Made by a program: the position numbers and the translations under genes. A stretch of DNA of 64,000 nucleotides from Gonium pectorale (lineage: Eukaryota > Chlorophyta > Chlorophyceae > Chlamydomonadales > Volvocaceae). Every line of letters starts with the position of its first letter. The stretch's first letter is position 1. The notes below the pieces were generated by a model, which was not told the origin of the DNA, searched no databases, and worked only from the letters and a program-made list of their open reading frames with translations. The DNA is taken from assembly GCA_001584585.1 (NCBI GenBank), contig LSYV01000022.1, positions 153,364 to 217,363 on the forward strand. Direction: 5' to 3'. Below, piece after piece: positions 8,122 through 52,600 of this stretch.

Positions 8122-8126
8122 TTACA
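8122..8126 (-). promoter_or_regulatory. Candidate polyadenylation signal TGTAA (minus strand)
   Basis: TTACA on the plus strand reads TGTAA on the minus strand. It lies about 540 bases downstream of the stop codon of the dodecapeptide-repeat gene. TGTAA is the characteristic polyadenylation signal of volvocine algae. The assignment is by position only. Confidence 0.4.
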
Positions 8127-8663: not shown

Positions 8664-11600
8664 TCAGGGGGCATGACGCTCGTGCCGCGATGGCGTCGGC
8701 GACGGCGACCCGGGCCCCTCCCCGGTCCCGGTCACACCCGCCGCTGCCCCCAACAGCGCCATCGGAGCCGCCACAGCCACACCCGCCGCCGCCAGCGGCG
8801 CCGCCACCATTGCGCCCACCACGCCCGCCGCCGCCATGGCCGCCGCTGGCACCGCCGTCGCCGCCACCTTGCCGCCCAGCCGCACCGCCAGCGTCGCGTT
8901 CACCGCCGGTCCCAGGCCCGCCGCCACGCCCGCCGTCAGTCCGGGGCCCATACATGAGATCAGCTGCGCCACCGCCGCCGGGCCCAGAGCCCCCACCAGA
9001 TCCGCCGTGAATGCCGTACCCAGAGCCACCGTCACATCCGCCGTCAGTCGGCCGCCCAGCGCCGACGCCACCTCGGCGACCGTCTCCATGCCCATCGCCG
9101 CCAGCAGCGCCGCCGTCAGCTGCACGCCCATGGCCCGCACCAGCGCCGCCGTGGCCTCCGGCCCCAGGTGCCCTACGACGTCGGCGGCGACGGCGGCGCC
9201 GAAGCGGTCGACCAGGCCGGCGGTGGCGGCGGCGCCCATGGCATGAGTCAGAGCGGCGGTGCGGTCCGCGCCCAGCGCCATGACGATGCCGCCCTGGGTC
9301 GAGCAGCAGGTGGGCGGTCATATCTTACGACGACTCATAGGCCTGTCCGGTGGCCGGTGGCCAGGGGTGCTGCTCGCTTGCGGCGATACCACAAGCGCAA
9401 CGATACCGGTAGCTTCCACTAGCACCGGTAAGGCGCGCGGGCGCACCTGAACTCCGGCCGGCCCAGCCTGGCCTTTGCGAGGGCCGTGCATGCTTCTGTT
9501 TGGCACTCGGCTTAACACGACCTCACGACCCACGCAGCAAGCCTCCGGCTATGGGCGCTTTCCCTGCAGCTCTGTACGGCGCCGCGCCGTGCCTTAGCTC
9601 CCAGCCGCACATCCTGACAAGCCGTCACCCCTCCGCCGCACCCACCGTCAGCTGTGGGCCGAAGAGGCGTACCAGCGCCGATGTGCCGCCCAGCCCCATG
9701 CACTCCGGGGGACCCTTGGCGCTGTCCGCGCCGCCAGCGCTCTTCGAGAGGCCCACCGAGCCCTGCTGCTGGCCGGCCTGGTCGCCGGCAGCACCGGCAC
9801 AATCTCCGACCACCAGCCGCGCCGTGCCCTCCGTCCCCATGGACTCCACAATGCCTGTGTGGGTGACGTGAAGCAGGTTGGGAGAGGGCACGCGGCAGGG
9901 GTTGGCAATTGGGGCCCAGGGAATGGGGGTGACAACGGTTGGAGGAGGGCTCGGAACAGATGGACAGGAGCCCGGGAGGCAAGAGGAGAGCCCGCGCCGT
10001 CGACGCCCATGATGTGTGGTCGGGTCACCCAACCGCCCCGCTCGGCAACCCACGCACCCCGACAATGTCCCCCATGCCCCGGTGCCCCCACGCACTCGCG
10101 GTCAGCTGCGGCCCGAAGGCCGCCACCAGCGCCGCCACCAGCGCAGTGCCCATGCCCTCCACCAGGGCCGCCGTCAGGGCCCGCCCCATGCAGGTCACCA
10201 GCTGCCCCACCATGGGGCCACCAATCAGCGCCACCAGCCGGCCCGCGAGGCCGGGCCCCATGGCCGCCACCAGCGGGCAGACCAGGCCGGGGCCCATCTG
10301 GCCCACCAGCTCAGCGGTCGCCTGCGCGGCCAGGCACAGAAGGTGAGGGGGCGGGGAGGGGCGGCGCGAAGCAAAGCAAGGTGAGCCGTGTGGTGGCGTT
10401 CCCATGCTTGATGACTGCATTCGTAAGCGCGCGCTGGGTTAAAACTCGCCCCTCCCCTCTGCTCCCCTCCCCTCTCCTTCCCTGAGGATGTGCCAATGTG
10501 GCGATGGCCCAACGCCCACAACCTCGCGTATAATTGACGTGCAAGCGCAGTCTGACACGCAGGCTCGCCACCTTGCGGAGCCGCACAACCCCCGACCGGT
10601 GTTGGAGTGCCCCCTACCTGCTGTGCGCGCGCGCGCCAGCGCCAGCGACACCCCACCCACCCATCCACCGCACCCCCGTCAGGGCTCTCGCGCGGCCCAC
10701 CTGCGGCCCCATGCTCCGCACCACCCCGGCGGCCAGCTCCGGCCCCAGCGCCGCCACCAGCTGCGCCGTGCACGTCGGCCCCAGCGCCGCCACCGCCGCT
10801 GCCGCCGGCCGCGACGGCAGCGGCAGCATGCGCAGCACCAGGTCGCCAGTCAGCTGCGGCCCGAATGCCGCCACCAGCTCCGCCACCATGGTGACCCCCA
10901 TCCTGGGCACCAGCTCCGCCATCACCTCCGGGCCTGCGTGTGAGGCGAAACGAACAGGGCGACGAGGGAGCCCGGGGGTATGCGTTGAGATGGATCCCCT
11001 TTTGCGCCCGTTCGTGCAGAGGGGGGAGTGGGGCCTGGGGCCGTCGGCGGAAGTTGTTGGTGAGGTGAGTTGGGCCGTTGCACGGGATGTGTGATACCGG
11101 TATCGGCATCTCTGGAGGGAGCCATGGAAGGTCGATGCTGGCGGGCGCTGGAGCACCCAATGACCCCCCACTGGTGAACCCCATCCGACCATCTTTCGTG
11201 CCTGTGCCTGGTACTCCTCATCCGGCCTAGGCCACCGGCCACCGCACCCAGAGCTAATGCCAGACCGTCCCACCCCCTCGGCGGCCCGTGTGACCCCCTA
11301 CGCCCCAGACCTCCGAAGCCCCCTCCGACGCCGTTGCCAGCCCCGACGTCCCCACCCATGTCCTCCACGATAGCCGCCGTCAGCTCGGGGCCCATCTCCG
11401 AGACCAGCTCCGCAGTGGTCTCGGAGCCCATGCGACCGACCAGCGCCGCCGTGGCCGCGGGGCCCAGCTGCGCCGCCGTGCCGCCCGCGGCGCCGGGGCC
11501 CATGGCCTCCACGATGTCTGCTGTGCGTCGGGCGCCCAACTGGCCCACCGTCTGTGCAGACGTAGCGGGATGGGTGCAGGGCGCCAAGTTACTTCATAAA

Positions 11601-12173
11601 AGAGAAACAAGGGCCATGTCAGGTCGTGGCGGGGCCCAGTACGGCGATAACTGTGTTGTTAATGAAACTGCGCTGGACATGCAGTTGGCAGGTGGCGGGT
11701 GGACCGGCGACGGAGCAGGGCGGCACGCGTGTGCTCGTTTGGCGTGCCTTGCTTGCTGCTGACCGGAGAGGCAGCGACGGAACGAGTGGCCCGGAGTGCG
11801 CCAGTCGGCCAGCGCGGCACCAACGACCGCTTCCGGATCCCTGCCTGCACGCACCATCGTACAGCACTGCACCGAGCTACCATACCGTTTTAGGTCAGGT
11901 CTCTAAGGTAAACCATTCCCCAGTTGCCGTCAGTTATTCCCCAGTTGACCCAGCCTCCACTTGTCTCGCCCCGCCCCGCACCTGCGCTGTGACGCGGACC
12001 CCCATGAAGTTGCCCACCACAGCCGCCAGGCCCCGCGGCCCCAGCGCCGCCGCCACCCTGGCCGTGAGTCCGGTGCCCATGGCACGCGCCGCAACTCGCG
12101 CCCTCGTGCCCGCGCCCGCGCCGTTCGCCGCGGTGGCAGCCGCCCCGCCCGCCGCCGAGCCTGCCGCCGCCAT
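8664..12173 (-). CDS. Dodecapeptide-repeat protein, family not recognised
   Basis: Six minus-strand exons: 12173-11982, 11551-11356, 10933-10701, 10321-10096, 9854-9646, 9293-8664, with GT/AG introns and matching phases, giving 561 codons plus stop. The protein is almost entirely about 36 tandem 12-residue units, consensus G-P-x-L-T-A-x-L-V-x-x-M/L; examples are GPELTAAIVEDM, GSETTAELVSEM and GPEATAALVRAM. All five splices rebuild a 12-residue unit (GVRVTAQ+TVGQL, GPQ+ATAELVGQM, GPQLT+GGIVMAL, and two with split codons). Hydrophobic positions 4, 8, 9 and 12 fall on one helix face and Gly-Pro begins each unit, suggesting strings of short amphipathic helices. A few units are 13 or 15 residues, and one is followed by a ~35-residue Gly/Gln/Ser-rich insert. 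The C-terminus is a hydrophobic Ala/Gly/Val segment followed by a short polar tail. The N-terminus is Ala-rich; the start is uncertain because the frame stays open into the gap at 12300. No function can be assigned. Confidence 0.8.
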
Positions 12174-12299: not shown

Positions 12300-12319
12300 N
12301 NNNNNNNNNNNNNNNNNNN
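12300..12319. other. Assembly gap (20 N)
   Basis: A run of exactly 20 N, probably a placeholder of unknown true length. It falls between the open 5' end of the minus-strand repeat gene and the first ATG of the plus-strand gene, so the starts of both and any shared promoter are hidden. Confidence 0.99.
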
Positions 12320-29358: not shown

Positions 29359-32300
29359 TCAGCGGCAGCAAACACGCGTAGCAGGTACACCGTGAAACTG
29401 ACGGGCGGCAAAGTGCTGCGTGCTTCCGTTTCTTACGCCCAGCTTGGAGGCCGTCCCCCCCCCCCTTCGCTGGCGGTGCGTGAGGTGCGCGACTGTGTTT
29501 GTTGCTGTGCCCCCCACCCCGTCCGCCCGCGTACCGACTCACCTCCTGAACCAGAGCCAGAGCCTTCCACAGCTCCGCAGCCGCGGGCCGGCGCGTGGGT
29601 TCGGACTCCCAGCAAGCCGTCAGCAGCGCCCGCAACTTGCGAGGGCAGCGCGCCTCCGGCAGATGGTCCAGCTGCAGGCGCGAATTGAGAATGGTGACAG
29701 CGACGGCGACCTGCGATGAAACGCGGCGCATGCAACGGTGCAGTCGGGCAGAACGGCGGAACAAGGTCGCCGCTAGCGGCTTGGCGTGGCCTGACCTAAC
29801 GCAGCCCAGCGCTGCAAAGGAGTGAATCACCCGCCCGGTCGCGCACCCGGGCGTGTAATGAAAGGGAGATATCTTGTGGGGACTCTGGCATTGTGATGCT
29901 TAGATTGTGCGTGCATGGATGTGGGTGTTGCGTGCCCGCCACACTCACCTCCATGTTGCTTTTGCCGTGCCACGGGCGGCAGCCCGTCAGCATCTCCCAC
30001 ACCAAAACGCCAAACGCAAAGACGTCCTGAACAAGGGCAACACAAACAGACAGTCCGGTCCGGTCCAAAACCAGACGAGATGCAATTGCGTTTGGCCCCA
30101 CAGCAGCAGGTGGGACATCGCGGTTAGCATTGAAGTACGGAAGGCGGCCGGGGAATGCTTACGTCAGACACAGATTGCATGCTGAAAGAAATCAAAGCCA
30201 ATCCAGGGGCGGTAACCGACGGCAGTAGCCGCCGTCTTCACGACGAGCCCCCATGCGAGCGTTAGTACGTAGGCGGTCACCGTCACTCCATGCCGGCCAT
30301 GTTACGCCGGTGTTGCATGGCCATCTGCCTTTGCAATCCCGAGAGCAGGCAGCGGCCCGAGTGACGGCGACGGCAGCTTCCGGCGGGGAAGGCATCACCT
30401 ACCACGCGGTCCTCAACCGTAAAATTGTTGACTGCGGACGGAGGGTGGGGGATGAGCGGGGGGCGGGAAGACGCACCGTGAGGGGAGCGGTAAGTGAGCG
30501 GGCACCTATCAGGTCCGCACTGGACTGGACCCACACAGGGTACCGTACAGTACGGCAGACACGAGGGCCTCGAGTAGCCTCCGATATAGCTAGTTGACGA
30601 CAAGGGCACGCCTACCGACAGACCGCGGGCGGTCCTAAGGAGCCGGCACTGCATATAGAGCGGCTTTGAAAACGTTAGCAACGCAGCAACCTATGCAACC
30701 GGCGCCGTCAACCGTAACTACTAACCGTCGAACAACTCTGGGGCCATGTACGGTACCGTGCCGACCTTCGCAGGGGGGAAGAAACCGTCAGCGAGCACTA
30801 CTACTGTTCGGGAAACGCATACCATAGCACCAGGGGCTGCATCCATAGCAGTAGCCAGGCTGCGCCCTACCGTACCAAACCAGTCAGGCAAAACAGGCGT
30901 GAGCGAGTGTGGCGGAGGCACCGACATGGATGGGCCCAGTGGCACAGCGAGCCCGCGGCATTACCGCATGGTCACGTTACTGAAACGGCGAAGTCTGACC
31001 TCAGGTTTGTCCGTTACGAGCACTGTGTTGTTCAGACGAGATATGCCAAAGTCCTGAGGCAGAAAGTTGACGCCCAAAGGGGCGCTGGGTGACGCTTAGC
31101 CGGAACATACCTCACAGCAGGAATGTGTGGTTGTCAACGAGCAAACACGCGGTGGTGAGGGCGCTCGTATGGAGCAGGTGCTGGGTAAAGGCGCGACGCA
31201 CACTGCTTTCGTGTCTTGGAGCAGACAGTAAGACACGCCAAGGAATCTTGGATTGGCCCCACTCCCGGATTCTAAAACTAAGTCGAGACGCCCCATCAAG
31301 CACAATGTCGGCTGCCTTTCTCACCGCGAGCTTGACCAACGGGTAGGGGCTGTGGCAGCTGGAGAGGAGGATGTTGGCGGGTTTGAGGTCTGCCGGCACA
31401 TTGGGCAATGATTCGGTGGGCGGCCCAAAAAGGTGAAAGGTCTACAACATAAACGTCGACATCCCAAAACCCGCTGAACGGCACAGGATAACCACCACCC
31501 TCCTGTTACTGGTACAACGAGCATTGCTGGGCCGCGACGCCCATCCTGAATGCAGATCGACACCGCGGGCCCCGCCCACCTTACCCCTGTGCACTATGGT
31601 TGGGTGAAGGTACATGAGCGCCCGAGCCACCTGCAGCGCGATGTGGATCACCTGGAGGGGGAGAAGAGGGACGAACCGGGGCGGGGCGAGGCGGGGCGAG
31701 GCGCGGCCGGCGGGGCGAGGCGAGCAGGGACCGGGGGGATGGTAGAAGCAGTCAGGTGACGGTGAAGACGAGTCGCGTGCTGACCAGGGCAGCGGCATCA
31801 CTAGCGTCCCGGATCCGATGTGTCAGAAGGCTGTAGGCATCCGAGAGAATGGCCGGCCAGTGCCATGTGCCAGTCATGGTGTAATGGACTACGGTACGCT
31901 GCCGCGGCGGTCGGCCCCGGCCAGCCTGATGCGCAGGCGCATTCCACACGGCGCTGACGCCTACTGGGAGCATGATATGCCAGGCCTGAAGCTCAGTGAT
32001 GATGAGACGTGGCACCTGGATACATGCTCGGATGGGGCCGCAATGACGGCCCCCCCCGCAGGCCAAAGAGTGCGACGGTGCCCGCTGTTCGCGCATGCAA
32101 CGGTGCGCACGTGCCAGCTTGCTGGGGGGCCACGACCGGGGTAAGGCATGCCAGCTTGCTGGGGGGCCACGACGGCGGCGGCGGGGGCGGGTGAGGCGGT
32201 CAGGCGCGCCTACCGTTGGGAGCGGCAGCAGGCGGCCCGCAGGTGATTCGCCATACAGGAAGCGATCCAGGGACGTCTCCATCAGCTCCATCACAAGGCA

Positions 32301-35300
32301 TATGCTAGGAGGCCTGTGTCGGCAGGAGAGGGGTGTAAACGCGGCAAGAGGGGGGGCAAGGCCCTGTGTTAGGAGCTGAGATCGGGTGCACGCCTGCAGA
32401 GACAGGCGGTCAAACAATCCACAACAACGGAGCTGTATCGCACCAACGCCAATCTTATATTCAGACATGTTGCCATGTTTCAAATCCCACGCGCCCTGCC
32501 CCGCCCTGCCCTGCGAATGTCACACCATTCCCAGGACTCACCTGAGGCTGGCCGCCAACAGCCGGACGATGTTGGGGTGGCGGCACCGCGCCAGCACCTG
32601 CACCTCTTGCTCCAACATGCCCAGCGCCGTGTTCGTTGGGTACTTCAGCCCCTCGCCAGGCATCCAGCCTCCTCCTCCTCCTCCTCCTCCTCCTCCTCCT
32701 CCTCCTCCTCCTCCTCCTCCAACTCCTTCGTCCCTAGCCGCCACCGCCGACGACGACTGAGCGGGCTCGTTGTTGAGCAGCGGAGGACTTCCAGTGCTAT
32801 CGAGCAATCCCGTGTCCAGCAGTTTGACGGCCACGCGCTCTCCGCGGTAGTGCCCCATTAGGACGCGCGTGCATGCGCCCTTGCCCAGGAGCGTCTTGTG
32901 TAGGACCACAGCGTCGGGGCTCCCGCCGCCGTCCCCATCGCTGTCGCCTTTGCCGCCGCCGCTACCGTTCACATCATCGACCCCGCCGCCGGCGCTGCTG
33001 CCTCCAGTCCTGATTTCTCCCGCCGCAGCGTCATCCTCGCCGCCACCGGGCGCGGCTATCGCAGCAGGGGCTGCCTTGATGCCGTCCGTACCGAGCTTGA
33101 CATCCATGTTTATGTCTGGCGCGACTGGTGTCAAGGGCGTGACGGGCACGAGCTGAAGCTCCGTCAGCGTGAGATGGAGCTGTCCCGAGGTCGAGGTCAC
33201 CGTATCCATCATGGCCCCGCTCATCAAGCCTGCACGGTGGGGAGGGGCTCTGATGTATCGCTGCTTTGGGGGCATAGAACACCGCCTAGACCACTCTTAC
33301 AATGCACCCTGTCGCACACACCACGTCAACCACGAAATCGCCCACACACTGCAGCCTTCATGTGCGCGCGTTGAAGGGCATACGGGGCTCGGCAGAGCCA
33401 GGCGCCCTGGCATTGTAGGAGGAGCGCATCTAGTTGGGATTGCGGACGGGGTGCACAGACCCAGCTAACTCGTAAGTGCTGCACTCACCGTTTAGCGAGA
33501 CTTCTGGGGCTCCGCTGACGTGCTGTGGATACCCCTTGGACAGAGAATGCAGTTTTGGAATGTGCTCGGCGGCATGCTCGAGCCCGGCCTCGCCCTGCGA
33601 CTCCTTGCGGGAGGTGCTTTGGTACACGGCCCCTAGGCGGCAGCGCTTTCGCACAACCACGAAGACCAGCGTTGCCGCAAAGAGCAGAGCCGATCCTGTA
33701 GGGCCGGTCGGCAAATTAACAAATGGCACGAATAAAATGCACGAATGCAATGCCCCCAAGAGGCAAAGAAAGCCGGCCAGGGAGGCGCACAGTCATTCAT
33801 CGGCCGCGAAGGTGGCAGTGCTCACTCTGGTGCAGCGGCATGTCCTGCGGATGGGCCGCATGCGACACCTCCACACGCATGGAGCCCCTCCAAGCAGCAG
33901 CTCCATCCCTGCTATCCGTTGCTTACCCCCCAGCAACCCCGCAAGCAGCGGCACCAAGTGCCGGTTGGTTGCCTGCGAGTCTCCAGCGCGCTCTCCGTTT
34001 GGAGGCGCGGCCGTCGGCGGTTGGTTGCCAGGAAAGGTAACGCCTCGGGAGGTTGGGTCGGCGATCAATTTATAGTAGCACCCGACTGCGAGTGGGGGAC
34101 ACGAGACCGACATGTGGAGACGACACACAAGGAGCACGGCACGCGTTGTTCACTGTCATGAAGAGCGCACGGGCAAGCCGCCGCAGGCTTGCCGCGCGCG
34201 GGCAAGCTTCTCATGCCACAGAAGTGCCTCCCGGGCCGCCTTTGTATGCCGTACGTCGCGGTAACGGCCACGCACGATGCGTACGGCACACCGTGTGCGA
34301 CTATGGCACGGCTGCCGTGCAGAGCATGCCGTACGGTAGCTGACGAGCGAAGACCTGTGCAGAGAAGCGTCAGCCGCGGTAACAATGGCCGTGGACCGCC
34401 CCCGACCTAGTATCCACCTTCCCAGAACGTCTGACCACAGCACTGCGACCCCGAGGCCCAGGCCCACCGGTCTGCAGCGGTTTGTGGCTGCTGTACGGCT
34501 GGTCCATGCCGTGCCGGTACTACAGCCTGCCGCATACGACTCACCGGGTCCGTACGCCGCCACACACGCCTCGTCCATCACTTGTTGGCACAGATAGTAG
34601 GTGTCTCTCAGCCACGCGACGTAGCCATCCAGTGTCGGGTTGCCATACGAGTTGGCACGGGAGCCGTAGAAGGCGGCATCGCCGTACCAGCCTATTCCAG
34701 GCCAGCACCGCTGCATGGGCGGCGCAGAGCTGTTATCAATGCAGCCGCCATCCCAGCCGCCTGGCATCTCCTCCTGGTACTGTTTGCCGGGAATCTCCGC
34801 CGGCCGGGGAATGGTAGCGACAGAATTGTTGACGGAGGGCGGTGGCAGGCAGATACCTGCGGCGCTGTGGGCAAAGCGCGGAGCTATCAAACCGGGTGTC
34901 GCGATGGGGGCGCGGGAATGCTTCAAGTGCCGCACACACCATGTTGCCCTTGTGCATGCATGAACGGGCTGTATTGCATCCCAGAACGGTGCCGCTGGCC
35001 TGTGCTGTCAGACTCGCGCTGTTAACGCCATGCCCTTGCGCCCGCATGGACGCATCTCTGCAATGCTCGTTGGGCACAAGCGGGGCAACGCGGGGGGCGC
35101 ATCTCTTTCGAGCAGACGGCAACTCACGGTGCACAATGGCGCCCTCGGACACCTGGAGGATCCCCATCGGCGTGGCGTCCGTGTTATCGCCTGTTACCAG
35201 TTCCAACCCAGGAACCTGAATGGCGCGTGGACGCAAGCGGTGGGCAGTCAGGCATCCAGGCCGGCGAAAGGCGATCGTCACGACTCAAACCCAAAAGCAT

Positions 35301-36597
35301 CGGCTTGCAGGCAAGGATGCAAAACTCAGGGGTGCATGGTAACGCAAACCGTGCACGAGACAGTACGATGACAGCTGGCCATAGAGTGCAGGGGCACCAG
35401 TCGCCCGCCGGGGCCTGACGCGCATTGACCCCCAGTGCTGAACTGATTCGACACATACGACCCCCCAGCGTGCTGCGACTGCCACACCCGAAGCACAAGG
35501 GGCAAGACGGTACGGCACACAGCTGCACACCCATCAAGGCGGGTGCAGGCGAGCGCCCGGCCCGTTGCGGGTGGTCCGCCGTGTCGAAAACCAGCACCGG
35601 GGTCATCGCCCATGGCAGAGCGACGCCTGCGGCTTGTGCGTCGAGACACGGTGGTACGGGTGCAAAGATTGCGCTCCCCAAGATCGCGAACATGCAAACC
35701 CTGTTTCCAGTTCGCGAGGGCCCACCTGAAATTGCGGGCGAGCACGGTAGCGCACAAGGACGAGCCTGGAGAATTGAAGCGACGAGCCGGGGAGCAGAAG
35801 TACCTGCAAAGCCATACGCAGACGCATGGGGAGAGAACCAGGAAACGAGGTCATTAAGGACGTGTGCCGACGCCGTGCGTACAACGATGAAGACAAACCG
35901 AGTCTGTGCGTCTGCGTGCGCAACCGGCTTTTGACGTGGTATGGCCGGCCAGCGGACGCTCCGGAGGGCTGCCGCACCTCGAAGCAAAGCCTGTCAGCCG
36001 ATCAGCTGTCGTGCCTGGGCCGGGACAGGTCCGATCTGACGATATGAGTTCGGGCTTGTGACCTCTACTCCGGGCCAGGCCACCGCCCGGCACCACATGC
36101 CGCATCAGCCTTAGCTGTTGCAGCCCTGGCAACATGGGCTGGATACTTCCGCACGGGGGCTTCCGTTCCCCAGCCATCCCCCCGCCACAGGCCTTCCAGG
36201 GGACGCCCGGCTATCGCCTTACCCGTGCTGATAGGTAGTTCATGTCCAGGACCGGCCACTGCGCACGCTCCGTGTACGCGCCCAGGATCGTGAAGTTCCT
36301 GGTCAACGGCACCGGATCCCGGTACGCCGCCCAGTCTGCTGCCGTCAGAACAAGGTCTGATGGGATTACAGCCAGCTGCGTTGCTGGGTTGACGAACGCC
36401 GCGACCAGCTGCGCACCGGTGAGGCATTCCACTACCGCCATGCGAGGGTTTGGCGGCACGGCCCCCGGCGGCCCCCACGCGGGCCCCTGGTCACTGCCAT
36501 ACGGCGCGCCAGGCGTCGCAACCAGCGCCTCAGCAGCCAGGATCAGCAGCAGAGGAATAAGCAGGAGAGGGGCGTCTGGGAGCTGTGCCGGGACCAT
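29359..36597 (-). CDS. Receptor-like protein kinase, copy 1 (TKL-like)
   Basis: Sixteen minus-strand exons with consistent phases: 36597-36223, 35803-35726, 35215-35128, 34856-34545, 34085-33927, 33695-33489, 33229-32542, 32313-32214, 31651-31585, 31389-31325, 31053-31000, 30765-30726, 30431-30403, 30026-29949, 29710-29543, 29397-29359; about 848 residues. The N-terminus is a signal peptide (PLLLIPLLLILAAEA). The ectodomain of roughly 300 residues has NFT and NSS glycosylation sequons and a Cys-containing exon (GGCIDNSSAPPMQRCW). A membrane helix is assembled across two exons (LVPLLAGLLGG+SALLFAATLVFVVV) and followed by RKR. The kinase domain has GKGACTRV, VAVK, helix C EQEVQVL, HR+DLKPAN split by an intron, DFG, VGTVPYMAPE, DVFAFGVLVWEML and a C-lobe Arg (TRRPAAAEL). 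All catalytic residues are present, so it should be an active Ser/Thr kinase at the plasma membrane with unknown ligand. A polyglycine insert lies between VAVK and helix C. The last short exon is tentative. Confidence 0.88.
32668..32720. repeat. (CCT)n tract coding polyglycine in kinase copy 1
   Basis: About 17 consecutive CCT units (GGA/GGG on the coding minus strand) encode a glycine run in the kinase N-lobe between the VAVK lysine and helix C. The paralogue has only a short run at about 48256-48280, so the tract expanded or contracted after duplication. Confidence 0.9.
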
Positions 36598-37586
36598 CCC
36601 GTCCAGTCGCGCACCAGCAAGAACCTCACGACACTATTAGCTAGACCCAGCCGAGGCGCCTCGCATCAGGCTTGTGCTCGGCGCCAGTTGGCCAGCTATC
36701 ACACAAACAATGCAGCCAACTGACTCCACACATACTGCGTTCTAAGGCCCATACATGTATCTTGGAGTGCTGAAGAAGGCTTGAGTAAGGGATGGTACAG
36801 TATAGTGGCGTTGGTCGAGGCCGCCTTGCCAGCTGCGCAGTCTAGTTGGGAGTAGCGCGCTTTCGATGTGTGTGATTTAGGGAGGGTAGCCTGCTCTTGC
36901 GTGGTTCGGCAGCCTTCGCAGGTTCGGGGGGCCAGCTGCATGCCTCCATGCCACGTCGGCGAGGCGCTCCGCCCGAACACGCATAAATTTCAGAGCAACC
37001 GTTCAATGATATCTTCTGATGCGAACCATAGCGTGAAATGTGAGTGCAGGATCCGGCATTTCCACAGGGATGTTCTGCCGGCTCTACCTTCAAGCCATCA
37101 TGCTACAGCTTGGTCAAAGGAGGCATAATCAGGCAGAAACTACGATGCGAGGAGCGCAAACCCCGTCCCGTACCAACCGTTCAGGACGGGGCCGTCGAAC
37201 CACCAACCGACGCTCCTCTCTTAACCGGACTTGAGCCAGACATATCTACATACTATGATAATGTGTGCAACAAAATTTGCAACCAGCACCGGACAATGTG
37301 GCAATAATGTGGCAATGTGACAAAACCGGGCTTGGATGGAGCTCACTGGAGCTCACTGCTGATCTTCTACCCATCGCTTCCGCAAACGTATGTGTCGCGC
37401 CCTGTGCGCAAAGCTTTGCGGCCAGCGGATCACTACCTGGCGCCTAGCCGTTAGCATGGGGGCAAGGCTTTTGGTGCCGGGCCCGGTGGGTGCAGCCCGC
37501 GTGGGTGCAGGCGTAGCGCAGGAGTTCTGACAGCAAAACCGCATGGCATTTGCACTAAGCTGTGGGTGCGGCGCTGGTAAAGCAAA
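36598..37586. other. Upstream region of kinase copy 1, no gene
   Basis: The first ~110 bases resemble the region upstream of kinase copy 2 and should include its promoter. Beyond that no coding frame can be supported. Confidence 0.45.
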
Positions 37587-39654: not shown

Positions 39655-41053
39655 ATGCCCACTTGCTTGCTCTTTCCGGGGCCTAAGCCCTTGTTTGTTT
39701 GTGATCCCGGCCAGTGTTTGCGCACCGCAGCCACCACCATCTTCCAGGCCGAATGCGACCGGCGTGGATTGCCCGTGACACTGTTCACTTACGTCGACGA
39801 TTTTATGATCATGGGCAAGACGCACGCGGACGTGGTGGGAGCTTTCGCGGTTATGGACGAGCTGGGCGCGGAGCTGGGGCTGGAGTGGAAAGCCAGCAAG
39901 GACCGTGGGCGGGACGTGCCGTTGCAACAGCTAGAATTCCTGGGTATGCTGTTCGACACTGTGGCGCTGGAAATGCGCATCCCGCACAGCAAGCGGCAGC
40001 GGTACGGTGGAAGCATTGATCAGCTGCTGGCAGCGCGGCTGCCGGCCCGGTGGACCGCACCGACTTCGAGTCGGTTGCCGGCCGCCTCACCTTCATCGCG
40101 CGAGCCTGTCGGTGGACTTGCAGTTTTGGCAGCGGATTCTCGACAGCTCTTCCTCCCTCTGGGACGGCGTGAAACGCTGCGCACGCGCCGACATCGACTT
40201 GGTTCGGGGGGAGTTCACCAGCGCGGGCGGCGCGGTGATCTACACAGACGCCAGCGGCTTGGGATTTGGCGCGGCGTGGGATGCAGCTGAGGTGCAGGGC
40301 GGGTGGTCAGACCCCGCAGAGCAGCGCCTGCACATCGCTTGGCTGGAGCTGACCGCGGTGCTGCGCGCCCTCCAGTCCTGGGCACCACGCCTAGCGGACA
40401 GGCGGGTGCTGGTGCGCTGTGACAATACGCAGGCGGTCGCGGGAATCAACCACGGCTCCACTCGCATGAGGGACGGCCGCAGCATCAGCCGGCAGCTGGC
40501 TGAATTAGCCATCCATCACGGCTTCGAGGTCAGGGCGGAGCACATTGCCGGCACTGAAAACGTGCGGGCCGACCGACTCAGCCGCCAGCTCGCTACGGCG
40601 CGGTCGCAGAATTTGCGGCTGAAAACCAGCATCTTTCGCCGGCTGGTCGGCCGAAGGTACCTCCCATCAATAGACTGCTGCTGCGACGTGCTCGGCCTCA
40701 ATATGCAACCCGGATGTACAGCCTTCTTCAGTGCGGCCAACTCGGTGCTGGACAAGGAAAGCGCCCTGGCTGGTCGGGTGCTGTGGGCCTTCCCGCCACA
40801 AGAACTAGCAGGCGAAGTGTTGTCGACCATCGCGGCCGCAGCAGCCCACGATGCGGGAACCCGGGCCACGGTGGTAGTGCCGGATTGGCCCGAGCGGCCC
40901 TGGCACCGCCGCTACGTGCGGGCGGGCCGAGGCCGCAAGTCACCTTTCCGGCTGGCGGAGCGTCTTCCGGCAGGGGACCGGCACTGTCTCTGGCCCTGGG
41001 GAGCGGAGGCGCGGGCGGCGCCTTACGATTTCTTAGTGTTGCGGCTTGGCTGA
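39655..41053 (+). pseudogene. DIRS reverse transcriptase / RNase H, frameshifted
   Basis: Reverse transcriptase residues TLFTYVDDFMIMGKTH and QLEFLGMLFDTVALEM occur in one frame to about 40035. A second frame holds VAGRLTFIARAC (about 40075-40115), and a third continues LQFWQRILDSSSSLWDGVKR and the RNase H domain: GGAVIYTDASGLGFGAAWD, ELTAVLRALQSWAP, VRCDNTQAV and EHIAGTENVRADRLSRQ, which include the expected acidic residues. At least two frameshifts therefore interrupt a once continuous polyprotein. The N-terminal fingers part of the reverse transcriptase is absent. The C-terminal extension to 41053 is unassigned. Confidence 0.85.
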
Positions 41054-44768: not shown

Positions 44769-47700
44769 TCAGCTCACGATAACTGCAATCACGCCCCCTT
44801 GACAGCCTCCTGGGTTGACTTGCGCCCAGCCGGGACGCCATGACTGGCGGTATGCTCCAACGCCTGAGGAGGAGGTGGACCGTGCCGCGCGCGGGGCCTT
44901 ACGGCGGGCGCCGACGACTGAGCGGCAGCAAACACGCGTAGCAGGTACACCGTGAAACTGACGGGCGGCAAAGTGCCGCGTGCTTCCGTTTCTCACGCCT
45001 AGCTAGAAGGCGTCACCCCCTTTACTAGTGGTGCGTGAGGTGCGCGGCTGTGTTCGTTGCTGTGCCCCCCCCCAGTCCGCCCGCGTACCGGCTTACCTCT
45101 TGAACCAGAGCCAGAGCCTTCACCAGCTCTGCAGCCGCGGGCCGGCGCGCGGGTTGGGACTCCCAGCAAGCCGTCAGCAGCGCCCGCAACTTGCGAGGGC
45201 AGCGCGCCTCCGGCAGATGGCTCAGCTGCAGGCGCGAATTGTGGATGGTGACAGCGACGGCGACCTGCGATGAAACGCGGCGCATGCAACGGTGCAGTCG
45301 GACGGATGGACGAACGAATTCGGGCGGACGCAGTTGGGCGGACGGACGGACGACAGAAGTCGCCGCTCGCGAGTTGGCCTGGCCCAATCTTACGCAGCCC
45401 AGCGCTCAAAAAGAGATATTAAATCACACCCCCGGCCACACACTTGGGCGTGTAAGGTATTGGCAAGGTATCTGAAGGGAACTCCTGATTTTACGCGCGG
45501 ATGTGACCGTAATGCGCCCGCCACACTCACCTCCATGTTGCTTTTGCCGTGCCACGGGCGGCAGCCCGTCAGCATCTCCCACAGCACAACGCCAAACGCA
45601 AACACGTCCTGAACAAGATCACACAGCAATACGATAGGGTCTGGCCAGACAGAAGGCGGGATGCAATAGCGTTTAGCCCCACATCAGCAGGTGGGAAGTC
45701 GCGGTGAGCGTGGTGTGCTGACGTCAGACACAGGTTGCATGCTGAAATGGGAATGCTAACGACATGCTAACGGAATGCTAGCGGTAGACGTCGGCATCGG
45801 TTGCATTTGAAAGGAAGCCAAGACATGGGCGGCAACCGACGGCATTGACCGCCGTCTTCGCGATGAGTCTGTGAACGCTGATTCGTCCCCGGTCTCCGGC
45901 CTTTGGTGCCGGGTTGTAGCGCCGGTTTTCACAGTCATCTGCCCAGGCGGCGGTGCGCAGGGGCGCTGCACGGGGCCTCGGTTGAGGTCTTCCACTCTGA
46001 CACCGGTCTGACAAGCGCGCAAAGCGACAGCGAGCAAGCGTTAACAGGCTCGTGCGATGGCGACGGCAGCTCCAGGATGGGAAAGCATTGCTCACCACGC
46101 GGTCTTCAACCGTGTAGTTGTTCACTGCGGATGGAGGTTGGGGTGGGGCGCGGGCCGGGAGCACGCACGGGAGGGGAGCGGCAGTGAGTCGGCACCTGCA
46201 GCGCGCGCACTGGACTGGACCCACATGTGCTACGACCGGGCAACTGGCCCACGGGTCAGTAGCCCTCGATACAGCTAGTTGTTTACAAGGGCATGCCTAC
46301 CTACCTATTGCGTGCGTATGTAAAAGAGCAGACACTGCATACTTGGCAGCTTCGCAGTACAGATGCGGCAAGCCTATGCAACCGGCGCTAACTACTAACC
46401 GTCGAACAACTCTGGGGCCATGTACGGCACCGTGCCGACCTTCGCAGGGGGGAAAGCAACCGTGAGCGAGCACTACTACTGTTCGGGAAACGCATACCAT
46501 AGCACCAGGGGCTGCATCCATAGCAGTAGCCAGGCTGCGCCCTACCGTACCAAACCAGAAGGGCAAATCAGGCGTGAGCGAGTGTGGCGGGAGGCACCGA
46601 CATGGATGGGCCCAGTGGCACAGCGAGCCCGCGGCATTACCGCATGGTCACGTTACTGAAATGGTGCGGTCTGACCTCAGGGTTGTCCGTTACGAGCACT
46701 GTGTTGTTCAGACGAGATATGCCAAAGTCCTGAGGCAGAACGTTGACGTCCAAAGGGGCGCTGGGTGACGCGAAGCCGGAACACACCTCACAGTGGTAAT
46801 GTGTGGTTCTCAACGAGCAAACACGCAGTTGCGCGGGCGCACGCGCAGAACAGATGCTGCGAAGAGGCGTGGCGCACACTCCTCTCGTGACTTGGAGCAG
46901 ACAGAAGCAGACGTGACACGCGCCAAGGCACCTTCGATAGTCCCCACTCCCCGATTCGTAAATGAAGTCGCGACGCCTCACCAAACCTATCGTGAGCTGC
47001 CTTTCTCACCGCCAGTTTGACCAACGGGTAGGGGCTGTGGCAGCTGGAGAGGAGGATGTTGGCGGGTTTGAGGTCTGCCGGCACATTGGGCAACGATTTA
47101 GTGGACGGCCCCAAAAGGTCCAAGGTCGACATCATAAGCGTCGACATCCCAAAACGCTCTGAACGGCACAGGATAACCACCACCCTACTGTTACTGGTAC
47201 AACGAGCCTTGCTGGGCCGCGACGCCCATCCTGAATGCAGATCGACACCGCGGACCCTGCCCACCTCACCCCTGTGCACTATGGTTGGGTGAAGGTGCAT
47301 GAGCGCCCGAGCCACCTGCAGCGCGATGTGGAGCACCTGGAGGGGGAGAAGAGGGACGAACCGAGGCGGGGCGAGGCGGGGCCGGCGGGGCGAGGCAAGT
47401 AGGGACCAGGTGGATGGTAGAAGCAGTCAGGTGACGGTGAAGACGAGTCGCGTGCTGGACAGGAAAGGGATATCACTAGCGCCCCGGAACTGACGTGTAA
47501 GAAGTCTGTAGGCACACAGGTGAAGCGAAAACCGCCTACCGCACAGGCGCATTCCGCACGGCGCTGACGCACACAGGCGGCAAGAGGTGCCAGGCCTCAA
47601 GCCTGAACATGATTGTGAGGCACGGCATCTGATGACCGGATCGCGCGCGTTTAGGGCCCATACGCGGATGGGGCCGCAACGACGGCCCACCCGCAGGCCC

Positions 47701-50700
47701 AAAGTGCGACGGTGCCCGCTGTTAGCGTCTGCAACGGCGCGCACGTGCCAGCTTGCTGGGGGGCCACGACCGGGGTAAGGCGTGCCAGCAGCATGGGGGC
47801 CACGACGGCGGCGGCGGCGGGTGAGGCGGTGAGGCGCGCCTACCGTTGGGAGCGGCAGCAGGCGGCCCGCAGGTGATTCGCCGTACAGGAAGCGGTCCAG
47901 GGACGTCTCCATTAGCTCCATCACAAGGCATATGCGAGGAGGCCTGGGTCGGCAGGAGAGGGGTGGTGCCCACACCGTGACCACAAGCGGCCATGCAATC
48001 CACTACAGCTGAGCTTTCTTGCATCTGTGCCCATCGCGTGTTCCGACGTTTGGTTTCGGCCCTGGCCAGGAGCCCACGCGCCCTGCCCCGCCCTGCCCTG
48101 TCATGCGAATGCCACACCATTCCCAGGACCCACCTGAGACTTGCCGCCAACAGCCGGACGATGTTGGGGTGGCGGCACCGCGCCAGCACCTGCACCTCTT
48201 GCTCCAACATGCCCAGCGCCGTGTTCGTCGGGTACTTCAGCCCCTCGCCAGGCACCCCCCCTCCTCCTCCTCCTTCTCCAAATCCTTCGTCCCCAGCCGC
48301 CACCGCCGACGACGACTGAGCGGACTCGTCGGTGAACAGCAGAGCGGTTCCAACGCAGCCCTCTAGCAATCCCGTGTCCAGCAGTTTGACGGCCACGCGC
48401 TCTCCGCGGTAGTGCCCCATTAGGACGCGCGTGCATGCGCCCTTGCCCAGGAGCGTCTTGTGTAGGACCACAGCGTCGGGGCTCCCGCCGCCGTCCCCAT
48501 CGCTGTCGCCTTTGCCGCCGCCGCTCCCGTTCACATCATCGATCCCGTCGCCGGAACTGCCGCTTCCTGTCCTGATTTCTCCCACCCCAGCGTCATCCTC
48601 GCCGCCACCGGGCGCGGCTATCGCAGCAGGGGCTGCCTTGATGCCGTCCGTACCGAGCTTGACATCCATGTTTATGTCTGGCGCGACTGGTGTCAAGGGC
48701 GTGACGGGCACGAGCTGAAGCTCCGTCAGCGTGAGATGGAGCTGAGCCGAGGTCGAGGTCATTGTATCCGTTATGGCCCCGCTCATCAAGCCTGCACGGT
48801 GGGGAGGGGCTCTGATATATCGCTGCTTTGGGGGCATAGAACACCGCCTAGAGTACTGTCACAACGCACCCTGTCGCACACACCACGTCAAAGTCGAACT
48901 CGTCCACACACTGCAGCCTTCATGTGCGCGCGTTGAAGGGCATACGGGGCTCGGCCGGCCTGGCATTGTACCCAACCCAGAGGAGGAGCGCATCTAGTTG
49001 GGATTGCGGACGGGGTGCACAGACCCAGCAAAATCGTTAGTGCTGCACTCACCGTGTGGCGGGACTTCTGAGGTTCCGCTGACGTGCTGTAGATATCCCT
49101 TGTGCACAAAATGCACTTCTGGGGTGTGTCCGGCGGCATGCTCGAGCCCGGCCTCGCCCTGCGACTCCTTGCGGGAGGTGCCCTGGTACACGGCCCCTCG
49201 GCGACAGCGCTTTCGCACAACCACGAAGGTCAGCGTTGCCGCAAGGAGCAGGGCCGAACCTGTAGGGCGGGTCGGCAAAGCAACAAGGCACGAATGAAAT
49301 GCCCTCAAAAGGCAGAGGGAGCCCGCCAGGGAGGCGCACAGTCATTCATCGGTCGCGAAGGTGGCAGTGCTCACTCTGGTGCAGCGGCATGTCCTGCGGA
49401 TGGGCCGCATGCGACACCTCCACACGCATGCAGCCCCTCCAAGCAGTAGCTCCCTCCCTGCTAACCGTTGCTTACCCCCCAGCACCCCCGCAAGCAGCGG
49501 CACCAAGTGTCTGTTGATTGCCTGCGAGTCTCCAGCGCGTTCCCCGTTTAAAGGGGCGGTTGGCGGCGGTTGGTTGCCAGGAACGGTAACGCCTCGGGAG
49601 GTTGGGTCGGCGATCAATTTGTAGTAGCACCCGACTGCGAGTAGGGGACACGAGACCGACATGTGGAGACGACACACCAGGGGCACGGCACGCGTCGTTC
49701 CCTGTCATGGAGAGCGGGTGTCTGCTGCCGCGCGGAGGCAAGCTTCTCCTACCACAAACGTGCATTCCAAGCCGCCTGTGCGCGCCACACATGTCGCGGT
49801 AACGGCCACGCACGATGCGTACGGCACACCGTGTGCGGTTATGGCACTGCTACAGAGCGGAGCATGCCGTACCGTAGCTGTTGTCACCGGGCCACAGTAC
49901 ACCGTACACCGTACGGCGCACACTGCAACGCGCTAGTTGCAAGCTGACGAGCGAAACCCTGTGCAAAGCAGCGTCAGCCGCGGTAGCACTTGCCGTGGAC
50001 CGCCCCCGACCTAGTATCCACCTTCCCAGAACGTCTGACCACAGCACTGCGACCCCGAGGCCCAGGCCCACAGGTCTGCAGCGGTTTGTGGCTGCTGTAC
50101 GGCTGGTCCATGCCGTGCCGGTACTACAGCCTGCCGTATACGACTCACCGGGTCCGTACTCCGCCACACACTTCTCGTCCATCACTTGTGAACACATGTA
50201 GTAGGTGTCTGTTAGCCACACCGCGTTGCCATCCAGTACTGGGTTGCCGTAGGAATCTGCGAAGGCGCTGTAGCAGGCGAGATCGCCGTACCTGCCTACC
50301 CCTGGCCAGCACCGCTGCATGGGCGGCGCGGAGGCGTCGGCAATGCAGCCGCCGACCCAGCCGCCCGGAAACTCCTCCTGGGACTGCTTGCCTGGGATCT
50401 CCACCGGCCGGGGCAAGGTAGTGACAGAGCTGTTGATGGAGGGCGGTGGCATGCAGATACCTACGGGGGAACGGGGCGGTGTGCTCAGAGCAGAGCTTGC
50501 AAAGCGGGCATCGAGACGGTGTCATGGGGGTAATAAAGATGGGAAACGGTCTCATGGGGGTAATAAAGATGGGAAACGGTCTCATGAGGATGCCTGAACC
50601 GCCGCTGGAACCTGCCCGCGGGCTGTTGTGCGTGCATCCCAGAGCCGTGCGACTGGCCAAAGACGTCTGTCAGATGCATGCTGTCAAGCACGGTGGCTGG

Positions 50701-52464
50701 GGTTCTGGCCCATCCCCGCGTGCGTGCACCTACGGCCGCACGCACACGGGGGGCAAGGCGGGGACAACACCTATCTCTCCTCTTGCGAGCAAACGGCGAC
50801 TCACGGAGCACAATGGCGCCCTGGGACATTCGGATGATCCCCATCGGCGTGGCGTTCGTGTTGGCGCCCGCCACGATGTCCAACCCAGGAACCTGAATGG
50901 CGCGCGGACGCAAGCGGGGGGCAGTCAGGCATCCAGGCCGGCGAAAGGCGATCGTCACGACTCAAACCCAAAAGCATCGGCTTGCAGGCAAGGTTGCAAA
51001 ACTCAGGGGTGCATGGTAACGCAAACCGTGCACGAGACAGTAGGATGACAGCTGGCCATAGAGTGCAGGGGCACCAGTCGCCCGCCGGGGCCTGACGCGC
51101 ATTGACCCCCAGTATTGAAAAGGAAAACGCATACGACGAGCGTAAGCGCGAAATTGATGGCGTCGGTGTAGGACCCCCAGTGTGTTGCGACTGCCACACC
51201 CGAAGCAGAAGGGGCAAGACGGTACGGCACACAGCTACACACCCATCAACGCGGGTGCAGGCGAGCGCCCGGCCCATTCCGGGTGGTTCGCCGTGGCAAA
51301 AACCAGCACCGGGAGCAGGTCCGTGGTAGGGCGTCGCCTGCTGCTTGTGCAAGAGGCACGGTGGTACGGGCGCAAGGAAGAGGGCCATACGCGGCCAGAG
51401 CAGTTCCCCACGATCGCGAGCACGCAATGCCCATCCGCGGGGGCCCACCTGGAAATGCGGGCCAGCTCGGAAACGCATAAGGACAAGCCTGGAGAAGTGA
51501 AGTGACGCGCCGGGGAGCAGCCGTACCTGCGGAGCCGTGCGCAGGCGCATGGGGAGGGCCAGGAAACGAGGTCATAAAGGACGCGCGCCAACAGTATGCC
51601 TGGCCCGAGTGATGAAGGCCAAGATCGAGCTTGTGCGCCTGCGCGCACTATCGGCGGGTGGGGCCGGACAGCCGACGCTCTGGAGGGCTGCCGCAGCCCA
51701 AAGCAAGGCCTGGCAGCCGACCAGCGATCGGGCCGGGTCCGAGATGGTGTCCGCTCTGACCGTTGACGGAGATCGGGCATGTCACCCCTAGTCCGGGCCA
51801 GGCCACCGCCCGGTACGCTGCACCAAATGCAGCTTCAGCCATAGTTGTTGCAGACCTGGCACCATCGGTTCGATATTTCTGCATGGGGGCTTCCGTTACG
51901 GGTGCGGCCCCGGCCACAGCTCTGGTGGCTCGCTCGGCACGCCCGCCTGTCGATTGTCGCCCCACAACGCCACAACAAACGCCTCCACCCTTGAAACCAA
52001 GCAGACGCTGGCAAAGCGCGTAGCCCACCCAAGCGGAGACCAAAACACTGCGCGCTGCGCCCTGCGCGCTTCCAGAGGGAGGCCGAATACCGCCTTACCC
52101 GGGATGATAAGAAGCTCATGTCAAGGACCGGCCAAAGTGCAGGGTCATCGTGCGCTCCCAGGATCGTTAAGTTCTTCGTCACGGGCACCGGGTCCCGGTA
52201 CGCCGCCCAGTCTGCTGCCGTCACAACAAGGTCCGATGGGATGATAGCGAACTGCGTCGCTGGGTTGACGAACGCCGCGACCAGCTGCGCACCGGTGAGA
52301 CACTCCACTACCGCCGTGCGAGGGTTTGGCGGCACGGCCCCCGGCGGCCCCGCGGCCCCCTCGCCACTGCCAGGCGGCGCGACAGGCGCCACAGCCAGCG
52401 CCTCAGTAGCCAGGGCCAGCAGCAGAGGGATAAGCAGGAGAGGGGCGAGCTGTGCCGGGACCAT
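44769..52464 (-). CDS. Receptor-like protein kinase, copy 2 (TKL-like)
   Basis: Exons: 52464-52099, 51526-51449, 50892-50805, 50460-50149, 49634-49476, 49259-49053, 48791-48134, 47943-47844, 47336-47270, 47074-47010, 46729-46676, 46439-46400, 46124-46096, 45608-45531, 45264-45097, 44957-44769; about 885 residues. All phases match. The protein parallels copy 1: signal peptide (PLLLIPLLLALATEA), ectodomain with NLT and NSS sequons, membrane helix (LVPLLAGVLGG+SALLLAATLTFVVV), then GKGACTRV, VAVK, HR+DLKPAN, DFG, APE and DVFAFGVVLWEML. The N-lobe insert is shorter than in copy 1. The last exon reads past the site where copy 1 has a stop (CGC TGA there, CGC TCA here), adding about 50 basic, Gly-rich residues. 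Exon 4 uses a TAG acceptor where copy 1 has CAG. Exons are mostly conserved while introns diverge, consistent with a working paralogue whose ligand is unknown. Confidence 0.88.
50518..50590. repeat. Intronic tandem repeat, 30-bp period
   Basis: Two full units and part of a third (GGTCTCATGGGGGTAATAAA plus GATGGGAAAC) in the intron between ectodomain exons 3 and 4 of kinase copy 2. It is absent from copy 1, so it arose after the duplication. Confidence 0.9.
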
Positions 52465-52600
52465 CCCGTCCTGCTGCGCTTGCCAGCAGGCTCTGCGCGG
52501 CAGAAATTTAACAATAGCCGTATAATAGACCTAGCCGAGGCGCTCTGTATCAGGATTGCCTAGCACCAGCTGGCCAGCTAACCCGACACACGAAAATAGC

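Follow-up and report, generated by a model that had tools for sequence, protein, structure and literature searches.

A candidate eukaryotic alpha-solenoid of about 34 twelve-residue units, resembling MgtE_N and FliG, in the green alga Gonium pectorale

Our study examined a 64-kb stretch of the Gonium pectorale genome (contig LSYV01000022.1, forward-strand positions 153,364 to 217,363, assembly GCA_001584585.1; hereafter the window) and, within it, a minus-strand gene whose predicted product, here the array protein, consists largely of a 12-residue unit repeated in tandem. The gene model runs from 12173 to 8664 and joins six exons into a protein of 561 amino acids (aa), with five GT-AG introns of 430, 422, 379, 241 and 352 nt (Table 1). 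It was rebuilt exactly as a sequence-based reading, the original prediction, had described it, in coordinates, exon count and protein length. The start codon is uncertain because a gap of 20 N lies at 12300-12319, just upstream of exon 1. Just upstream of this gap is an ATG-started frame (12538-12320, minus strand) rich in Ser, Ala, Arg and Pro, which could represent a longer N-terminus or a targeting peptide and is out of frame as assembled. At the other end, about 540 nt beyond the stop codon, there is a TGTAA at 8126 (minus strand), the sequence that usually serves as poly(A) signal in Chlamydomonas.

A scan with a unit profile derived from the array protein itself revealed 34 strong units (aa 33-491) and two weak units beyond them, 36 in total. 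The first position is Gly, encoded by a Gly codon, in 34/34 strong units, and the last codon is ATG in 16/34. Junctions between strong units are gapless in 30 of 33 cases, the remaining three being interrupted by 1, 15 and 35 residues, so that their description as perfect in period was slightly too strong; the expected number of about 36 units stood, as 34 strong and two weak. By eye, no intron within the 35-residue insert was found that would restore exactly 12 residues. Identity at a lag of 12 residues was 0.324 across aa 30-495 (z = 15.0 against 500 shuffles), and lags of 24 and 36 gave z values of 13.0 and 12.7. The best of 300 protein shuffles reached 5 units and a score of 39, compared to 34 units and a score of 578 for the real protein. 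Averaged over the units, hydropathy peaks at positions 4, 8, 9 and 12, falls to low values at 3 and 7 and is slightly negative at 10 and 11; positions 1 and 6 mostly carry small residues. Beyond the units the protein ends in a tail whose mean hydropathy, in 19-residue windows that begin at aa 494-522, rises as high as 2.13.

Table 1. Features of the array gene, in window coordinates
Feature	Position	Strand	Remark
Exon 1 of the model (uncertain start codon)	11982..12173	-	first unit at aa 33
Intron 1, GT-AG	11552..11981	-	phase 0
Exon 2	11356..11551	-	
Intron 2, GT-AG	10934..11355	-	phase 1
Exon 3	10701..10933	-	
Intron 3, GT-AG	10322..10700	-	phase 0
Exon 4	10096..10321	-	
Intron 4, GT-AG	9855..10095	-	phase 1
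Exon 5	9646..9854	-	
Intron 5, GT-AG	9294..9645	-	phase 0; follows position 5 of a unit; probably common to homologues
Exon 6, including stop codon	8664..9293	-	piece folded with AlphaFold2
Span of the 34 strong units, aa 33-491 (with introns)	8877..12077	-	unit scan
15-residue array break (aa 166-180)	10782..10826	-	unit scan; final 12 residues may be one degenerate unit
35-residue low-complexity insert in exon 5 part of array (aa 301-335)	9697..9801	-	unit scan
Ala/Val-rich hydrophobic tail (about aa 494-540)	8730..8870	-	hydropathy

Comparison of the units at the nucleotide level revealed that constraint acts on the protein more than on the DNA. This was indicated by the ratio of observed between-unit differences to those expected from composition: 0.75 at the first codon position, 0.59 at the second, which is the most constrained, and 0.94, near expectation, at the third. 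Together with the lag-12 signal, this bears out the earlier view that the minus strand codes for a 12-residue unit under constraint. Among the 687 stop-to-stop stretches of at least 60 aa in the window, the six highest unit scores (171 to 27) belonged to the six stretches that hold the exons, all on the minus strand. The next two stretches scored 15.5 and 12.9 and carry two units each, as do the stretches with exon 1 and exon 5. Restoration of the repeat register by splicing was rejected as proof of the introns, as each intron has 28-42 GT/AG pairs no more than 60 nt away, 1-3 of which restore it. Recent tandem duplication was also rejected, since the identity between neighbouring units (4.52 of 12 residues) does not stand out from that at distances of 2 to 14 units (4.05-4.77).

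Homology searches, each covering about 8,000 scored candidates, identified a set of related proteins, and other volvocine homologues may have escaped them. The spliced protein, compared to 7,997 scored candidates, found one relative, P0001, at 6.1e-10; a search with P0001 returned 16 proteins including itself (P0001-P0016; source labels lgn, jgi and eukprot); and a third search, with a profile, gave 14 proteins, all of them already known. These proteins are known from their C-terminal part, and one of them, P0013 from EukProt, is named as a complete transcript open reading frame of 328 aa, the record holding 278 aa. Their alignment spans about ten units without internal gaps, with residues fixed unit by unit, and about ten units align gaplessly with exon 6 at 27-33 % identity. 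By these alignments, P0001-P0016 are a family that shares the 12-residue unit with the array protein. A position-specific score placed the best register between family and array at an offset of 372 (44.4, next best 31.6), although BLOSUM62 scoring left offsets 372 and 169 tied (196.7 and 197.9), which counts against a simple one-to-one register. Four of the 16 homologues extend further upstream, and all four carry AGGIV, an acceptor-like motif, at the place of intron 5; read from the homologue proteins, the last intron is probably common to them and the array gene, lying one unit off the preferred register (offset 372). In at least 90 % of the homologues, position 10 of units 3, 6 and 7 is kept as His, Arg and Thr, respectively, and these conserved polar residues may form a binding ridge. 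The array protein in the preferred register has other residues at these positions, and it ends in a hydrophobic tail, in contrast to the Ser/Gly-rich C-terminal tails of the family.

The array had been thought to match no described repeat family, an assessment overturned by Pfam. MgtE_N (PF03448) matched the 561-aa protein at E 4.3e-15 in two stretches (56.5 bits, cut-off 25.9), and FliG_N exceeded its curated cut-off over the whole protein (E 2.7e-8, 34.8 bits, cut-off 25), although diffusely, with no single stretch passing. FliG_M remained below its cut-off (18.9 bits against 25), FliG_C gave no match in the same scan, and the NCBIfam fliG equivalog scored 18.7 bits against a cut-off of 226.7. 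Five Pfam families reached E ≤1 with this model, and neither the CBS nor the transmembrane domains of MgtE were among them, nor were the ARM, HEAT, TPR, PPR or OPR models; the matches to YdaT_toxin (0.04) and DUF6740 (0.81) were read as chance. Of the family proteins, 15 of 16 matched MgtE_N at E ≤0.1 (best 1.2e-5), P0001 alone scoring 23.7 bits, below the cut-off of 25.9. The dependence of the match on residue order was examined with seven sequences: the bare array, two column shuffles and four order-breaking controls. MgtE_N matched the bare array at 7.6e-16 and the column shuffles at 6.2e-14 and 1.6e-15, whereas two position-permuted arrays, the reversed array and one full shuffle gave no MgtE_N or FliG match, and the match therefore reads residue order within the 12-mer. 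An Urb2 match on the reversed control (6.3e-5) was read as chance.

The predicted structure tended towards the same two protein families. AlphaFold2 predicted 11-residue helices in the exon 6 piece, interrupted at each Gly, in line with the very short helices that had been proposed, and structural comparison of this model placed MgtE and FliG at the top with modest scores. The leading matches were MgtE N domains (PDB 2YVY, 2OUX, 8GPS), of which chain 2yvy aligned over 22-129, about nine 12-residue steps compared to about 34 in the array protein. FliG (PF14842, PF14841; PDB 3AJC, 4FHR, 8UMD) resembles the array in its structural matches, its FliG_N score over the whole protein and a gapless alignment of four 12-residue steps (E about 0.3), and was the best, if weak, hit of the whole protein in a PDB sequence search (0.13). 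A profile from six pieces of the array returned a spore protein first (E 0.0026), which was read as chance, then HeliScrew4 (PDB 9ZEM; 0.048) and FliG (0.064). HeliScrew4, for which no paper was found in the literature, matched weakly in sequence throughout (E 0.59, 0.048, 0.24) and repeats at about 8 residues in the alignment rather than 12. The heads of the bacterial E-ring proteins FlgY, FlbB and MotE, filed under MgtE_N, form an ARM-like superhelix, those of FlgY being described as right-handed and as resembling the MgtE N domain and the ARM-like motifs of FliG, with ARM repeats that stack both within and between molecules (PMC11870540, PMC13023049). These heads are bacterial and described as four-membered, and are set beside the array by description only. 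Algal TPR, PPR and OPR alpha-solenoids are likewise helical tandem repeats, but with longer units of 34, 35 and 38-40 residues (PMC8635915).

Taken together, this evidence leads us to regard the array protein, with a fair degree of confidence, as a eukaryotic alpha-solenoid of about 34 single-helix steps of the MgtE_N/FliG type. By its domain content it is neither an MgtE channel, which has CBS and transmembrane domains, nor FliG; on this reading it is a long variant of an already known short-helix architecture. Each 12-residue unit would form a single helix of 11 residues that a hinge Gly closes off, and the predicted stacking of these helices is that of the ARM-like superhelix seen in the MgtE N domain and in FliG; positions 4, 8, 9 and 12 would lie in the core, and 3, 7, 10 and 11 would face outward. 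The single helices would wind into a screw whose core is continuous and whose outer face varies. Because ARM-like superhelices stack in bacterial motor proteins, the algal protein is taken, by analogy, to be probably an elongated protein-binding scaffold; its outer face might bind proteins, or the array might stack end to end like the ARM-like motifs of bacterial motor rings, and the hydrophobic tail would perhaps hold the scaffold at a membrane. A more tentative extension, which we consider doubtful, is that the MgtE_N/FliG single-helix step came from bacteria and was drawn out in green algae into an almost continuous screw of about 34 steps, serving as a scaffold that can stack and that bears a binding ridge specific to the lineage. 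If true, a eukaryotic structure would have taken over the ARM-like principle from the flagellar rotor of bacteria.

The most substantial alternative is convergence, in which a GC-rich algal genome multiplied an amphipathic 12-mer and retained it as a generic stack of short helices without descent from MgtE_N or FliG, although such an array may still function like them. We consider this possible rather than likely, yet several results weigh in its favour. The column-shuffled arrays score on a par with the real array against MgtE_N, so that the real order of the units is not needed for the match and room is left for convergence; two scans of prokaryote contigs gave 485 and 37 pattern matches, none of which was confirmed as a relative; and the family profile recovered neither MgtE nor FliG from the PDB. 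The strength of the unit-signature match to MgtE_N argues against convergence, as does the lead of MgtE and FliG by fold.

The remaining explanations appear considerably less probable. A rod of helices lying on or coating a membrane or lipid body, with the tail as anchor, had been suggested in the original prediction and has the hydrophobic C-terminal tail as the one point in its favour; the hydrophobic positions of the unit fit a buried core instead, and the homologues end in Ser/Gly-rich sequence, which makes this reading improbable. That the array is not a gene, and reflects chance open frames in GC-rich repetitive DNA, we regard as very improbable indeed. The window has a GC content of 0.639 and long open frames on both strands, the gene model is a prediction from sequence, and the same genome contains a genuine simple-repeat look-alike. 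Against this stand the constraint at codon position 2 with position 3 near expectation, and the unit-specific conservation of the homologues, one of which comes from a transcriptome set.

The favoured solenoid points to a short-helix step, that of MgtE_N and FliG, able to recur some 34 times at a near-fixed period of 12 residues. Elsewhere this type of step is known from bacterial proteins of magnesium channels and flagellar motors, where it covers short stretches, and, to our knowledge, about 34 steps is the longest such run. A natural solenoid with one helix per unit would help to define a repeat class and inform repeat-protein design, and an unstudied algal gene would gain a testable structure and role. 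In the literature consulted, mostly from outside subscription journals and available in part, neither the array protein nor any MgtE_N array from an alga was reported; this includes the available part of PMC8104411, and both 'MgtE' and 'FliG' were absent from the text examined of PMC13126933.

The array appears to be restricted to this locus within the best-scoring candidates to which the genome searches were confined: three protein searches for a second locus returned this one alone at E <0.15, and an MgtE_N search of the genome returned no other. Six weak loci were checked by unit scan, of which L016 and L024 (C32:808196-808579) reached 7 units and the other four 0 or 1. L016/L024 was rejected as a 4-residue VAEF satellite imitating the 12-mer; the surrounding satellite region (L033, G000:C32:803500-813400) contains 2,707 N among 9,901 bases. 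Viral contigs gave five pattern matches, none confirmed, and the best match in a viral structure library had an E of 1.6. Pherophorin-type domains are typical of volvocines, and the pherophorin domain PF12499 had 54 matches in this genome and was found in 0/14 control genomes, in keeping with a volvocine alga.

Over the window as a whole, Rfam returned nothing over its cut-off. Positions 31500-36604 and 47185-52471 share seven collinear pieces of 78-93 % identity and, on this alignment, represent a segmental duplication whose copies lie about 15.7 kb from each other; its left end may lie further out, as the comparison began at 31500. Between the two copies, an open frame at 39935-41050 on the plus strand matched reverse-transcriptase RNase H below the cut-off (E 1.1e-4, 22.7 bits, cut-off 24.8) and is probably a retroelement.
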